Virus record (IMG/VR): IMGVR_UViG_3300022562_000769
Location: 1-34,178 of that record
Source: a virus
DNA length: 34,178 bases
Strand: one strand, 5' to 3'
The notes under the pieces are model-generated. The model had not been told where the DNA came from. It ran no database searches and saw nothing but the letters and a program-made list of their open reading frames with translations. Below, one piece after another: positions 9,438 through 33,296 of the stretch. Made by a program: the position numbers and the translations under genes. Within the stretch, counting starts at the first letter, position 1. Each line of letters opens with the position of its first letter.

Positions 9438-10199
9438 ATGAAGAATTTAATAATAGGACAAGGAGAGATTGGAAAATCACTCTATGAAGTCCTAAGTAAA
9501 GCTCACGAAACTTATATAAGAGATAAAGAAGATTTACAGATAGACGGGATAGAAGTTCTCAATATCTGCTACCCTTATCATAAAGATTTCGTTAAAACAA
9601 CTAAGGCATACATAAAACAGTACAAACCTAAAGTTGTAATAATTCACTCAACAGTAAAACCTGGCACAACTAAACAGTGCGGGGATTTGTGTGTCCATTC
9701 ACCAGCACACGGAAAACATCCTAATTTACAGGAGGGGATTTTAACTTTTGTAAAATATATAGGAGGAGAGGATGTTTACTCTGTATTTTTAGCTGATAAG
9801 TTTTTAAAGGAAGCAGGTATTGATACTCAAGTAGTAGCTAACTCAAAGACTTCTGAGTTATCAAAGATTTTCTGCACTTCATACTATGGTTGGAATATAA
9901 TATTTATGAAAGAAATGGCAAAAATATGCAAGAAAGAAGGAGTCTCATTTAAAGAGGTATATTATGACTGGAATGTATTTTATAACGAAGGATATGCTAA
10001 ATTAGGCATGGAACAATTCAGAAGACCAGTATTAGAACCTATGAATAAGGGGCGAACAGGCGGACATTGTGTAGTAGAAAATAGTTATTTATATAGTTCA
10101 TTTTTAACAGATACCTTAAGGGCAAAGAATCTTGAATATGAGAAGGAGGCACAAGATGAAGAGAAAAATACCAGAAATTCAAAGACATCTAATAGGTAG
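9438..10199 (+). CDS. Short nucleotide-sugar 6-dehydrogenase-like protein
   Basis: A 253-residue protein of the UDP-glucose/UDP-ManNAc dehydrogenase type. It has an N-terminal Rossmann loop GQGEIG (7-12), an IIHSTVKPGTT motif (about 68-78), a conserved VHSPAHGKHP stretch and the central helical domain. Near residues 210-214 it has TGGHC, the GGHC form of the catalytic-cysteine motif. Full-length relatives have about 400-440 residues with a separate C-terminal UDP-binding domain; here that domain is missing. Short versions of this family occur in phages. It would oxidise the C6 alcohol to an acid using NAD, but activity without the third domain is uncertain. Confidence 0.75.
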   Translation: MKNLIIGQGEIGKSLYEVLSKAHETYIRDKEDLQIDGIEVLNICYPYHKDFVKTTKAYIKQYKPKVVIIHSTVKPGTTKQCGDLCVHSPAHGKHPNLQEGILTFVKYIGGEDVYSVFLADKFLKEAGIDTQVVANSKTSELSKIFCTSYYGWNIIFMKEMAKICKKEGVSFKEVYYDWNVFYNEGYAKLGMEQFRRPVLEPMNKGRTGGHCVVENSYLYSSFLTDTLRAKNLEYEKEAQDEEKNTRNSKTSNR

Positions 10200-10548
10200 T
10201 AATCCTATTATTCACGAGTACACTTGGATTGGCGACAAAGTTACAATCGGTGATAATGTCAAAATCCAAGCATTTGCTTTCATTCCAAACGGAGTAATGA
10301 TACACAACGATGTATTCATCGGTCCACACGTTTGTTTTACAAACGACAAACACCCACCGTCTGGGGGTAAGCACTGGGCTTTTACCGTAGTAGAGGATGG
10401 TGCTGTAATCGGTGCTAACGCTACAATCATATGCGGTGTAAGGATAGGTAAAAATGCCGTAGTCGGTGCTGGTTCAGTAGTAACCAAAGACGTGCCTGAA
10501 GGTATCACAGTAATAGGCAATCCTGCCAAGCCCTTAGCGGGGGGTTAA
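10156..10548 (+). CDS. Hexapeptide-repeat sugar N-acetyltransferase (WlbB/WbpD-like)
   Basis: A 130-residue left-handed beta-helix protein with repeated [I/V]GxxxxI turns (IGDKVTIGDNVKI, IGANATI, IGKNAVVGAGSVV) and a CFTNDKHP loop at 60-67, typical of acetyl-CoA-dependent sugar amine acetyltransferases. The start at 10156 is preferred because AGAAGGAGG lies just upstream; an in-frame ATG at 10132 has no such site. It overlaps the dehydrogenase end by 44 bases. A second acetyltransferase of the same class lies at 13184, so the two may acetylate different amino sugars or different positions. Confidence 0.85.
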   Translation: MKRKIPEIQRHLIGSNPIIHEYTWIGDKVTIGDNVKIQAFAFIPNGVMIHNDVFIGPHVCFTNDKHPPSGGKHWAFTVVEDGAVIGANATIICGVRIGKNAVVGAGSVVTKDVPEGITVIGNPAKPLAGG

Positions 10549-27852: not shown

Positions 27853-28065
27853 ATGGACTGTCATATCTGCCACTTACCCATTCCTGAAGGCAAGGAGAAA
27901 GAAGTACAATGCAACTCTAAAGTATATTACTTTCATCAGGATTGCTTTGAGCAATACACTGACAAGTCTTATCTTGAGGAGATGAGTCGCTTGTACGCTA
28001 TTCAAAAGGAGTTCGCAAATGACTTCATCCAATATCAATACACTTTGCAAATGGCTTCACATTAA
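27853..28065 (+). CDS. Small zinc-finger protein (CxxC...HxxC)
   Basis: A 70-residue protein with C3/C6 and H28/C31 as probable zinc ligands. A YYFHQDCFEQY stretch is typical of LIM- or PARP-like mini fingers found in phage small proteins. The rest is helical. A GGGG-containing SD lies upstream. It begins the cassette of small genes with strong SDs and less AT-rich coding. Confidence 0.65.
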   Translation: MDCHICHLPIPEGKEKEVQCNSKVYYFHQDCFEQYTDKSYLEEMSRLYAIQKEFANDFIQYQYTLQMASH

Positions 28066-28093
28066 CCTTCACATACTGGTCTCAAGGGCTTTT

Positions 28094-28267
28094 ATGTGGA
28101 AGTACAAACGGAGTGATGCTTACTCCATTTCAAACGCTATCCATGTGATAGCAAGCGAGGATGAAATACCTCTTTTCGTACAGAACTATGTGCGTCAAGT
28201 GGTCTATCCTAAAAGGAGGATGCCATGTTCATTAGAAACGACCCACACAACAACATTGGGACATTAG
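28094..28267 (+). CDS. Hypothetical small protein
   Basis: A 57-residue frame starting at ATG 28094 (AAGGG upstream), encoding an SDAYSISNAIHVIASEDEIP stretch followed by FVQNYVRQVVYPKRR. A longer start at 28019 would overlap the previous gene by 47 bases. The end overlaps the next gene by 43 bases, and the last 15 residues coincide with its SD and start, so the true end is as read but coding strength is modest. No family recognised. Confidence 0.4.
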   Translation: MWKYKRSDAYSISNAIHVIASEDEIPLFVQNYVRQVVYPKRRMPCSLETTHTTTLGH

Positions 28268-28410
28268 AGTTTGACCTCAAAAAGACTGACGAGGTAATTC
28301 TCTACATTGAAATCCTTGAGGCAATCAAGGACAACTCCGAGAGCCGAAGGATAAAGGCTGTCGTTCAGGGAGCTATTGACGAAGTAGCTCATCCTCCTTC
28401 GGTAAATTAA
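28225..28410 (+). CDS. Small hypothetical protein with strong SD
   Basis: A 61-residue protein with a near-perfect AAAAGGAGG site five bases before its ATG, a rarity in this genome. The sequence is mixed alpha/beta (LEFDLKKTDEVILYIEILEA) and ends ahead of another AGGAGG-led gene. No family is recognised. The SD makes the start secure. Confidence 0.65.
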   Translation: MFIRNDPHNNIGTLEFDLKKTDEVILYIEILEAIKDNSESRRIKAVVQGAIDEVAHPPSVN

Positions 28411-28420
28411 GGAGGTCGCC

Positions 28421-28669
28421 ATGAAATGGAATAACCCAGTAGATGTTGTAAAACGGGTGGCTGGTGAGCTATCCGAAGAACGCAGATGTGCTTTCTGCTT
28501 GGCTTTTATACCGCTTAACAAGGGCTGTATAAAGTTTAACCATAAGTTTTACTGCAATCATTCACACTTGGGCTATTATCAAGCTCAAAAACGGAGGGAG
28601 TTTCGTGAACAACAAGACTACCCTAAAGACGAGGAGGTGGATGATGACTACCCTTACATTAGTCGCTAA
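28421..28669 (+). CDS. Small zinc-finger protein with strong SD
   Basis: An 82-residue protein with AAGGAGG upstream, C23/C26 and a C45/H47/H49 cluster (FYCNHSHLGYY) that could complete a zinc site. An acidic C-terminus (KDEEVDDDYPYISR) follows. It resembles the zinc-finger protein at 27853 in plan (CxxC, then a FY/YY..C/H segment), so the two may be diverged copies. Role unknown. Confidence 0.65.
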   Translation: MKWNNPVDVVKRVAGELSEERRCAFCLAFIPLNKGCIKFNHKFYCNHSHLGYYQAQKRREFREQQDYPKDEEVDDDYPYISR

Positions 28670-28763
28670 AACCGCATGGATGATTTTTATAGTAGGATGT
28701 ATTGTGGGCTTCGCCATCGGTGTGGGGCTTACATACAAGCTGATCCCTGAACTGAGAAAATAA
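28644..28763 (+). CDS. Very small single-span membrane protein
   Basis: A 39-residue protein with one hydrophobic span (about 8-30, containing MIFIVGCIVGFAIGVGL) and a short basic tail. GAGGAGG sits six bases upstream of ATG 28644; a second in-frame ATG at 28641 is too close to it. It overlaps the zinc-finger gene by 26 bases. Tiny phage membrane proteins of this type can be holin-like or spanin-related, but nothing decides it. Confidence 0.55.
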   Translation: MTTLTLVAKTAWMIFIVGCIVGFAIGVGLTYKLIPELRK

Positions 28764-31810: not shown

Positions 31811-32017
31811 CTAAGGTACTATGGGAGTTGAGGTACGGACTCGTAAGAAATGTGCTTCATGTGGTAATATTGTAAACATCTCATTAGCTTTTTCTATTTT
31901 CATTGAACACTCTCTGCAGATCTCTCTATAAAAGAACTTCGGGAAAAACTTAGTCTTTTCACACACCATGCAGGTTCTTATCGGGAGGTCATCATTTTCT
32001 AATATTATTTCATTCAT
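31811..32017 (-). CDS. Minus-strand zinc-ribbon protein, leaderless
   Basis: A 68-residue protein, the only convincing minus-strand gene. It has CMVC (near 16-19) and CREC (near 34-37) flanking KTKFFPKFFYREI, the pattern of a small zinc ribbon. The start at 32017 is chosen because a perfect minus promoter (TATAAT at 32029-32024) ends six bases before this ATG, predicting a leaderless mRNA; an in-frame ATG at 32065 lies upstream of that promoter. A DNA-binding regulator of the opposing transcripts is a fair guess, not shown. Confidence 0.65.
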   Translation of the reverse strand: MNEIILENDDLPIRTCMVCEKTKFFPKFFYREICRECSMKIEKANEMFTILPHEAHFLRVRTSTPIVP

Positions 32018-32023
32018 ATATAG

Positions 32024-32052
32024 ATTATAGCATTTTATAAAAACACTTGCAA
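32024..32052 (-). promoter_or_regulatory. Minus-strand promoter sharing its -35 with a plus promoter
   Basis: Read on the minus strand: TTGCAA (32052-32047), 17 bases, TATAAT (32029-32024) preceded by TGC. TTGCAA is its own reverse complement, so the same six bases are the -35 of the plus promoter. The predicted start coincides with the ATG at 32017. Confidence 0.75.
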
Positions 32053-32075
32053 TAATTTTGTCCACATGCTATAAT
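32047..32075 (+). promoter_or_regulatory. Plus-strand promoter for a small RNA, shared -35
   Basis: TTGCAA (32047-32052), 17 bases, TATAAT (32070-32075) preceded by TGC. Start expected near 32082. A terminator ends at about 32145, so the product would be near 65 bases with no substantial coding frame. Confidence 0.75.
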
Positions 32076-32081
32076 GTATTT

Positions 32082-32145
32082 AGCATACACCTCCCCCCGA
32101 AGGTCATGCTACCCCTTAGCCCACTATAATGGTGGGCTTTTTCTT
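32082..32145 (+). ncRNA. Putative small RNA with a CCUCC-bearing hairpin
   Basis: Between promoter and terminator lie about 64 bases. The first hairpin is AGCAT (32082-32086) with ATGCT (32106-32110) plus ACCT (32089-32092) with AGGT (32101-32104), leaving a CCCCCCGA loop. The strand reads CCTCCCCCC from 32090, the anti-Shine-Dalgarno core CCUCC within it. The second hairpin is the terminator. Only a seven-codon frame (ATG at 32106) is possible. C-rich loops of this sort are known in bacterial sRNAs that bind ribosome-binding sites. Confidence 0.55.
32118..32145 (+). terminator. Rho-independent terminator of the small RNA
   Basis: AGCCCAC (32118-32124) pairs with GTGGGCT (32132-32138) around TATAATG, followed by TTTTTCTTTT. 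Strong, GC-rich stem with T-tract. Confidence 0.85.
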
Positions 32146-32160
32146 TTGTGTATAACTTTC

Positions 32161-32188
32161 TTGAAAGATTTATTGTGGGTGGTATAAT
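32161..32188 (+). promoter_or_regulatory. Promoter giving a leaderless transcript
   Basis: TTGAAA at 32161-32166, 16 bases, TATAAT at 32183-32188 preceded by TGG. Six bases separate it from the ATG at 32195, which is where transcription should begin. The same six-base gap is seen for the minus-strand gene at 32017. Confidence 0.7.
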
Positions 32189-32194
32189 TAGTGT

Positions 32195-32560
32195 ATGTCT
32201 TGGGAGTGTAAAAAATCAGATAATAAATTACACCAGTTCCTCTACAATGGAGCTAATTGTTCCTTTTGTGGTATCTCACAATACGATTTAAATAAGAGAG
32301 AAAAGCCTATTGCAAAATCTCTTGGAAAGAGTTATAATAAACCAGAGGTAAATGCAAAGAGTAAACGAGGCGTATTATTCCAAGACTTAGTTAAATTCTT
32401 CGGGATAACAAACAAACAAAAATTCTTCTATCAGACTATCAGATACTCAAATGACGAGATAGATTATGCCATGAGCGTGATAAAAGACAGATTAAATAGA
32501 GGAGAATTAAAAGGAAATCCTACGGGATACTTTCTGGGGATATTAAAAAATTTAAAGTAG
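32195..32560 (+). CDS. Hypothetical protein with a CxxC finger, leaderless
   Basis: A 121-residue protein. The N-terminus has an HQFLYNGANCSFCGISQYDL stretch with one CxxC and a nearby His and Cys that might complete a zinc site. A basic linker follows (about 30-60) and then a helical C-terminal domain (LVKFFGITNKQKFFYQTIRY, DEIDYAMSVIKDRLNRG) that could bind nucleic acid. No family is recognised. Its ATG lies at the predicted transcription start. Confidence 0.65.
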   Translation: MSWECKKSDNKLHQFLYNGANCSFCGISQYDLNKREKPIAKSLGKSYNKPEVNAKSKRGVLFQDLVKFFGITNKQKFFYQTIRYSNDEIDYAMSVIKDRLNRGELKGNPTGYFLGILKNLK

Positions 32561-32923: not shown

Positions 32924-32952
32924 TTGCAAAAGAAATAAATATTTGATATAAT
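32924..32952 (+). promoter_or_regulatory. Promoter before the 35-codon gene and second structured RNA
   Basis: TTGCAA at 32924-32929, 17 bases, TATAAT at 32947-32952 preceded by TGA. Start near 32959, leaving a leader of about 17 bases before ATG 32976. Confidence 0.75.
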
Positions 32953-32975
32953 TGTAATAATAATTAACAAAAACT

Positions 32976-33083
32976 ATGTCCAAAAGCAAAGAAAACAAAA
33001 GAATAGTATCTTATACATTAGGGGATTATTCCTTTGCTTTGGACAGCAAATCATTTGAATATGAAACAGAGAGGCGTCTTTAA
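32976..33083 (+). CDS. 35-residue peptide ending in a terminator
   Basis: A short frame from ATG 32976, beginning MSKSKENKRIVSYTLG and ending ERRL, just after a strong promoter. Its TAA stop (33081-33083) lies in the loop of a terminator hairpin. The arrangement resembles a leader-peptide attenuator, though the peptide shows no run of a regulatory amino acid. It may also be simply a small protein gene. Confidence 0.5.
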   Translation: MSKSKENKRIVSYTLGDYSFALDSKSFEYETERRL

Positions 33084-33107
33084 TTAGATGCCTTTTTGTT
33101 TTGTTTT
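33072..33107 (+). terminator. Terminator overlapping the end of the 35-codon frame
   Basis: AGGCGTCT (33072-33079) pairs with AGATGCCT (33086-33093), one G-T pair, six-base loop holding the TAA stop, then TTTTTGTTTTGTTTT. A structured RNA region starts at its end. Confidence 0.8.
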
Positions 33108-33285
33108 AAAACAGGAATATGAGAGTGGCGGACTGTGAGCCGTAGAGAAAAATCGGTAAGATGTAACCCCGTGACCCAAAGTGTACATACTGGGAAACTC
33201 GCAACAGTATTTATTAGCCAGGAGTAATTATCTGGTATCCATAAATAGGCTGTAAGTCAAACCTTACCTCTCGTATTCCTGTTTT
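33108..33285 (+). ncRNA. Putative large structured RNA closed by an 18-bp stem
   Basis: AAAACAGGAATATGAGAG (33108-33125) pairs along its whole length with CTCTCGTATTCCTGTTTT (33268-33285), one G-T pair. Inside, CAG-TATTTAT-CCAG pairs with CTGG-ATAAATA-CTG to form a long hairpin (about 33205-33252). GGTAAG (33155-33160) can pair with the CTTACC at 33263-33268, and CCC..AGT with ACT..GGG (about 33175-33194). No coding frame is present and the base composition is less AT-rich than around it. A known RNA class cannot be named by eye; a small non-autonomous mobile element with inverted ends is the alternative. Confidence 0.6.
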
Positions 33286-33296
33286 AGATTATTAAC

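Follow-up and report, generated by a model that had tools for sequence, protein, structure and literature searches.

Does the intergenic stretch around position 32,082 of this phage encode a small regulatory RNA, and if so, on which messages would it act? The DNA analyzed here, referred to as the window, is the whole 34,178-base virus record IMGVR_UViG_3300022562_000769. Its genes include those for a terminase, a major head protein and lysis, as well as sugar-nucleotide and glycosyltransferase genes and a gene for an exonuclease subunit of DNA polymerase, and nearly all of them are oriented rightward. An earlier note, made from the sequence alone, proposed an RNA of about 64 bases between a consensus promoter and a strong terminator. 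The promoter and terminator sequences, the predicted fold and shuffled controls bear out this proposal. Promoter, fold and terminator are computed features; from them we infer that the following intergenic unit is transcribed.

32047-32075, + strand: predicted rightward promoter, composed of TTGCAA (32047-32052), a 17-nt spacer and the extended -10 element TGC-TATAAT (32070-32075).
32082-32143, + strand: predicted small RNA (sRNA) of about 62 to 64 nt, with two hairpins and the sequence AGCAUACACCUCCCCCCGAAGGUCAUGCUACCCCUUAGCCCACUAUAAUGGUGGGCUUUUUCUU.
32118-32143, + strand: predicted intrinsic terminator with a 9-bp stem, a loop of 3 and a U tail.

The +1 of the sRNA is predicted at about 32082, approximately 7 bases past the -10 element, and the terminator reads AGCCCACTA-TAA-TGGTGGGCT at 32118-32138, followed by TTTTTC. 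This unit is the only one in the window above the strict thresholds of a shuffle test, in which 1,861 dinucleotide-preserving shuffles of the entire window, scanned on both strands, yielded three units in total. The resulting mean of 0.0016 per shuffled window, compared to one in the real window, is optimistic, since the thresholds were picked after the unit was known, though the margin is wide. Even at looser thresholds, just 26 promoter-terminator units were detected in 2.5 Mb of other collected loci. A spurious, nonfunctional pairing of a promoter with a terminator could account for a unit picked out of an entire window and lacking any detected relative, but these low background counts make it quite unlikely. 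A discrete small-RNA gene at 32082 is therefore, as far as sequence features go, a solid prediction.

The surroundings of the unit include a second, leftward promoter and two short ORFs.

32024-32052, - strand: predicted leftward promoter, with the shared palindromic TTGCAA, a 17-nt spacer and the -10 element TGC-TATAAT.
31811-32017, - strand: divergent 68-amino-acid ORF with a CxxC/CxxC pattern, predicted to be leaderless.
32161-32188, + strand: second rightward promoter, TTGAAA-N16-TATAAT with extended TG (11/12), distinct from the sRNA unit.
32195-32560, + strand: 121-amino-acid ORF with a CxxC motif, its start codon coinciding with the predicted +1.

The self-complementary TTGCAA serves as the -35 element of two mirror-image promoter arms, both with TGCTATAAT. 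The leftward transcript is predicted to begin at 32017, on the first base of the ATG that opens the 68-amino-acid ORF; Pfam returned no match for this ORF. As the predicted +1 falls on the ATG in both flanking ORFs, both are predicted to be leaderless. A symmetric TTGCAA divergent promoter like that at 32024-32075 was also present in 55 stretches of viral contigs (L177-L231), which makes it a recurrent design; many of these stretches precede short regulator-like ORFs, and many have an SD-led gene on either side.

This arrangement raises the question of whether the hairpin is an RNA element at all. ATGCTA/TAGCAT occurs four times within 84 bp (32028, 32066, 32081, and 32106), compared to 26 times elsewhere in the 34 kb, and such clustered copies might each form half of an operator through which a regulator controls the divergent promoter. 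The first hairpin of the RNA would then arise incidentally from the inverted repeats of the operator, and the recurrence of the symmetric promoter ahead of regulator-like genes fits this idea. Two of the four copies are, however, merely the TGCTATAAT -10 elements, and operators would leave both the inner stem ACCU/AGGU of the hairpin and the terminator unexplained. We regard a role purely as regulatory DNA as rather unlikely.

The main rival to a base-pairing sRNA is a terminated leader. The 6S RNA of phage lambda, a short terminated RNA ahead of a gene block on the same strand, is made from the strong promoter pR'. The unit described here likewise combines a strong promoter and a short RNA with a terminator immediately before a rightward gene block. 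In this scenario, the promoter would fire constantly and transcription would stop at 32118-32138 until a phage antitermination factor allowed read-through, which the genes from 32195 on would need; the hairpin would act as a signal or arise incidentally, with no seed role for the cytosines. A candidate for the regulator is the gene on the leftward arm. However, the roughly 62-nt phage RNA differs from lambda 6S RNA in starting at a divergent promoter and in being followed by a gene with its own promoter. This near-consensus 11/12 promoter is predicted to start transcription at the ATG of the downstream gene, so that read-through should not be needed and the sRNA would be a separate unit. Furthermore, no antiterminator gene was recognized. 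A terminated leader is accordingly a possibility that we take seriously but consider doubtful.

If the RNA acts by base-pairing, its fold should expose a seed. The 64-mer folds into two hairpins with -21.1 kcal/mol (z -3.9), a value matched by 0 of 200 shuffles; taken singly, hairpin 1 has a z of -2.8 and the terminator a z of -4.3.

32082-32110, + strand: hairpin 1, with the outer stem AGCAU/AUGCU (32082-86/32106-10) and the inner stem ACCU/AGGU.
32090-32098, + strand: CCUCCCCCC, with CCU paired and CCCCCC open according to unpaired probabilities.
32111-32117, + strand: linker ACCCCUU, a second C-rich putative seed, single-stranded with an unpaired probability of 1.0.

In the inner stem, ACCU (32089-32092) pairs with AGGU (32101-32104), leaving CCCCCCGA (32093-32100) as the open loop. 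The earlier note placed CCUCC, the core of the anti-SD, at and in this loop. The hairpin and its C-rich loop are indeed predicted, but CCUCC straddles the border of stem and loop, and each base of CCU has an unpaired probability of at most 0.02. Since CCU is held in the inner stem, the exposed seed would be the run of six cytosines at 32093, and the window's + strand has no other run of at least six C. Pairing with GGAGG would require about 5 kcal/mol of unfolding. The linker is an open C-stretch that had been overlooked; its CCCC and the last four cytosines of the loop all have unpaired probabilities near 1. With a seed taken as at least four open C, the unpaired probabilities thus predict that the sRNA carries one.

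Which messages such cytosines might recognize depends on the use of SDs in this phage, for which a census was computed. Most of its roughly 50 starts pair with the anti-SD more weakly than random 20-mers of the window (median of -0.6 versus -2.9 kcal/mol), indicating that SDs are avoided. Strong SDs precede 27853, 28019, 28225, 28421, 28644, and 10156. The previous description of an SD-poor phage with strong sites at 28225, 28421, 28644, and 10156 was therefore correct, and those at 27853 and 28019 are additional. These genes form two candidate targets.

27853-28763, + strand: candidate target, an operon with five small ORFs and the sole series of consecutive genes with strong SDs.
10156-10548, + strand: second candidate target, a gene of the sugar cluster with the SD GGAGG.

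The small ORFs of 27853-28763 have a higher G+C content of about 42%. The gene at 10156 is preceded by a nucleotide-sugar epimerase gene and followed by an aminotransferase gene. Its SD is kept in five of six relatives (L064, L065, L067, L070, and L071) and absent in L093, and the genes adjoining its counterparts mostly have no SD.

Pairing was scored without gaps, counting the opening costs of both partners. The best site among the phage starts is AAGGGG before 27853, where AAAAGGGG complements CCCCUU of the linker with a predicted -6.1 kcal/mol. GGAGG at 10156 reached -1.8 kcal/mol, and 28644 (+0.6 kcal/mol), 28421 (+2.1 kcal/mol, at a site which is not its SD), and 28225 (+5.0 kcal/mol) scored unfavorably because both partners are structured. 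The notion that the RNA could bind SD-type sites holds insofar as pairing between a C-rich seed and G-rich SDs is possible in principle, albeit not through a CCUCC that is half buried, and silencing of 28225, 28421, and 28644 is argued against by opening costs which place them near or above zero, with the reservation that the value for 28421 does not refer to its SD. With energy gaps this small and matches this short, these models prove no target. Co-folding of sRNA and messages favored no SD gene over shuffled sRNAs, in a pseudoknot-free model that excludes pairs between loop and message.

Binding of SDs by C-rich seeds has precedents in bacteria. UCCCC motifs of RsaE/RoxS-type sRNAs bind SDs, which is an established mode of sRNA action (PMC9217828), and C-rich seeds of anti-SD sRNAs do so in Rhizobiales as well (PMC10746234). 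The predicted phage RNA resembles RsaE/RoxS of Staphylococcus and Bacillus in its seeds, which in these sRNAs are of the UCCCC type, include one in a 5' stem-loop and serve for G-rich SDs (PMC9217828). In contrast, RsaE/RoxS are chromosomal, conserved and found in SD-using Firmicutes, while the phage RNA belongs to an SD-poor phage and no sequence relatives of it were found; Rfam gave no match to place it in the RsaE/RoxS family proper. The alpha-r14 or "cuckoo" sRNAs of Rhizobiales likewise have a hairpin bearing an anti-SD stretch that contains CCUCC, but comprise at least three hairpins, each with an ultraconserved unpaired CCUCCUCCC (PMC10746234, PMC3927594). The phage sRNA has a single nonterminator hairpin in place of several, its motif CCUCCCCCC is unrepeated and the CCU therein is paired, so that no unpaired CCUCCUCCC is presented. 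Considering these differences and the lack of an Rfam match, it is a member of neither family, and by analogy the likeness to RsaE is closer and that to the CCUCCUCCC sRNAs of Rhizobiales looser. The phage sRNAs sar, DicF, IsrK, and AgvB are also short and act on messages or other sRNAs (reviewed in PMC12197685); they differ in coming from phages of well-studied hosts and share no known target with the RNA described here, and their sequences were compared via Rfam only.

Taken together, we favor, with a probability of roughly 0.4, a lineage-specific phage sRNA with C-rich seeds and an RsaE-like mode of action, whose likeliest role would be to regulate the phage's own SD-led operon. An RNA of about 62 nt would be made from the right arm of the symmetric divergent promoter and stop at the intrinsic terminator. 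We infer that it would work in trans by base-pairing, with the open C6 loop and the CCCC linker as seeds for G-rich ribosome-binding sites. Since clear G-rich SDs occur in the phage messages only at 27853-28763 and 10156, these genes would be the likeliest targets, and the sRNA might time or limit their expression, foremost that of 27853 with its AAAAGGGG, rather than shut off the host. A unit better than chance, two open C-stretches, an SD-poor phage and the site at 27853 with -6.1 kcal/mol count in favor of this proposal; the weakness of a 6-bp CCCCUU/AAGGGG match and the poor scores of the strongest SDs count against it. If it is correct, this mode of regulation would extend to a phage lineage with mostly SD-less and several leaderless genes, in which a single SD-led operon would be a natural target.

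The sRNA is at present a well-formed orphan candidate. Rfam yielded no family at the gathering threshold and, at a relaxed threshold over the RNA, nothing beyond chance. The exact 17-mer of the hairpin had five matches in viral contigs, each lying in coding-like sequence and lacking both a promoter and a terminator, and none of 83 viral-contig stretches with TATAAT-N6-26-ACCTCCCCCC had the promoter-hairpin-terminator layout. Descriptor and promoter-terminator scans of about 2 to 2.5 Mb of other loci revealed no second example of this layout, and neither local BLAST nor a DNA search of 15 related virus records returned anything resembling the sRNA. The genes surrounding it are orphans too: the 121-amino-acid protein encoded at 32195 retrieved no convincing relatives when used as bait, a lone partial match to the leftward 68-amino-acid protein was judged spurious, and the early genes were unmatched in structural relatives. 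Seven loci retrieved with the SLT lysis protein as bait all were without such a unit.

Relatives found through other genes are informative about the host. They are mostly SD-poor and often leaderless, with G004 (L077 and L078) being richer in SDs, and TG-extended -10 boxes often end 6 to 8 bases before the ATG in those relatives that have the head protein in common with the window. Across the phage group (the window, L073-L083, and L093), SD-poor genes thus occur together with TG-extended -10 boxes close to the ATG, which suggests that leaderless messages are common in this group and that its host is bacterial. As the relatives share this SD-poor, often leaderless style, the host probably makes little use of SDs. 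An archaeal host was considered via L093, the sole genome match, a contig binned as Nanoarchaeota, and rejected. In this contig, one ATG is preceded at a distance of 6 nt by a TGTTATAAT of bacterial type, which makes mis-binning likelier than an archaeal host, and it is probably a mis-binned contig.

A host with little SD use bears directly on the role initially envisaged, in which the RNA would act as an SD decoy or blocker, silencing those host messages that depend on an SD and leaving SD-less phage genes running. Such a shut-off would make little sense in such a host. A C-rich stretch in an SD-poor phage and a bare consensus SD that pairs at -5.8 kcal/mol after opening of the inner stem are compatible with it. 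However, most relatives are SD-poor and often leaderless, half of CCUCC is hidden in a stem, a single RNA this small would need to be more abundant than the host messages, and the phage's own sugar gene at 10156 would suffer too. Silencing of SD-dependent host messages is thus very unlikely. It is tempting to speculate that the phage RNA might sort messages by their translation start, blocking SD-led messages of the host or of acquired genes and sparing leaderless and SD-less ones; such a translational-class switch would be a new way of controlling translation in the infected cell, but among the possibilities discussed here we give it the least credence.

Further structured or compact elements were observed. 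A compact unit at 32924-33097 (+ strand) has the promoter TTGCAA-N17-TATAAT, a terminator at about 33066-33097 and a short ORF from near 32977 without an SD. It is followed by about 180 bases of pronounced structure (33105-33290, + strand), with a long closing stem AAAACAGGAAUA...UAUUCCUGUUUU and a predicted -58.4 kcal/mol (z -4.1). Rfam gave no match for this stretch, which is possibly a larger structured RNA or ribozyme, judging from the modeled fold. Finally, in the leaders TATAATTGGGG[GA]AGGTAAAA..ATGACCTCCCCCC of L105, L159, and L168, the first codons complement the adjoining SD, and these leaders could form a self-closing ribosome-binding site.
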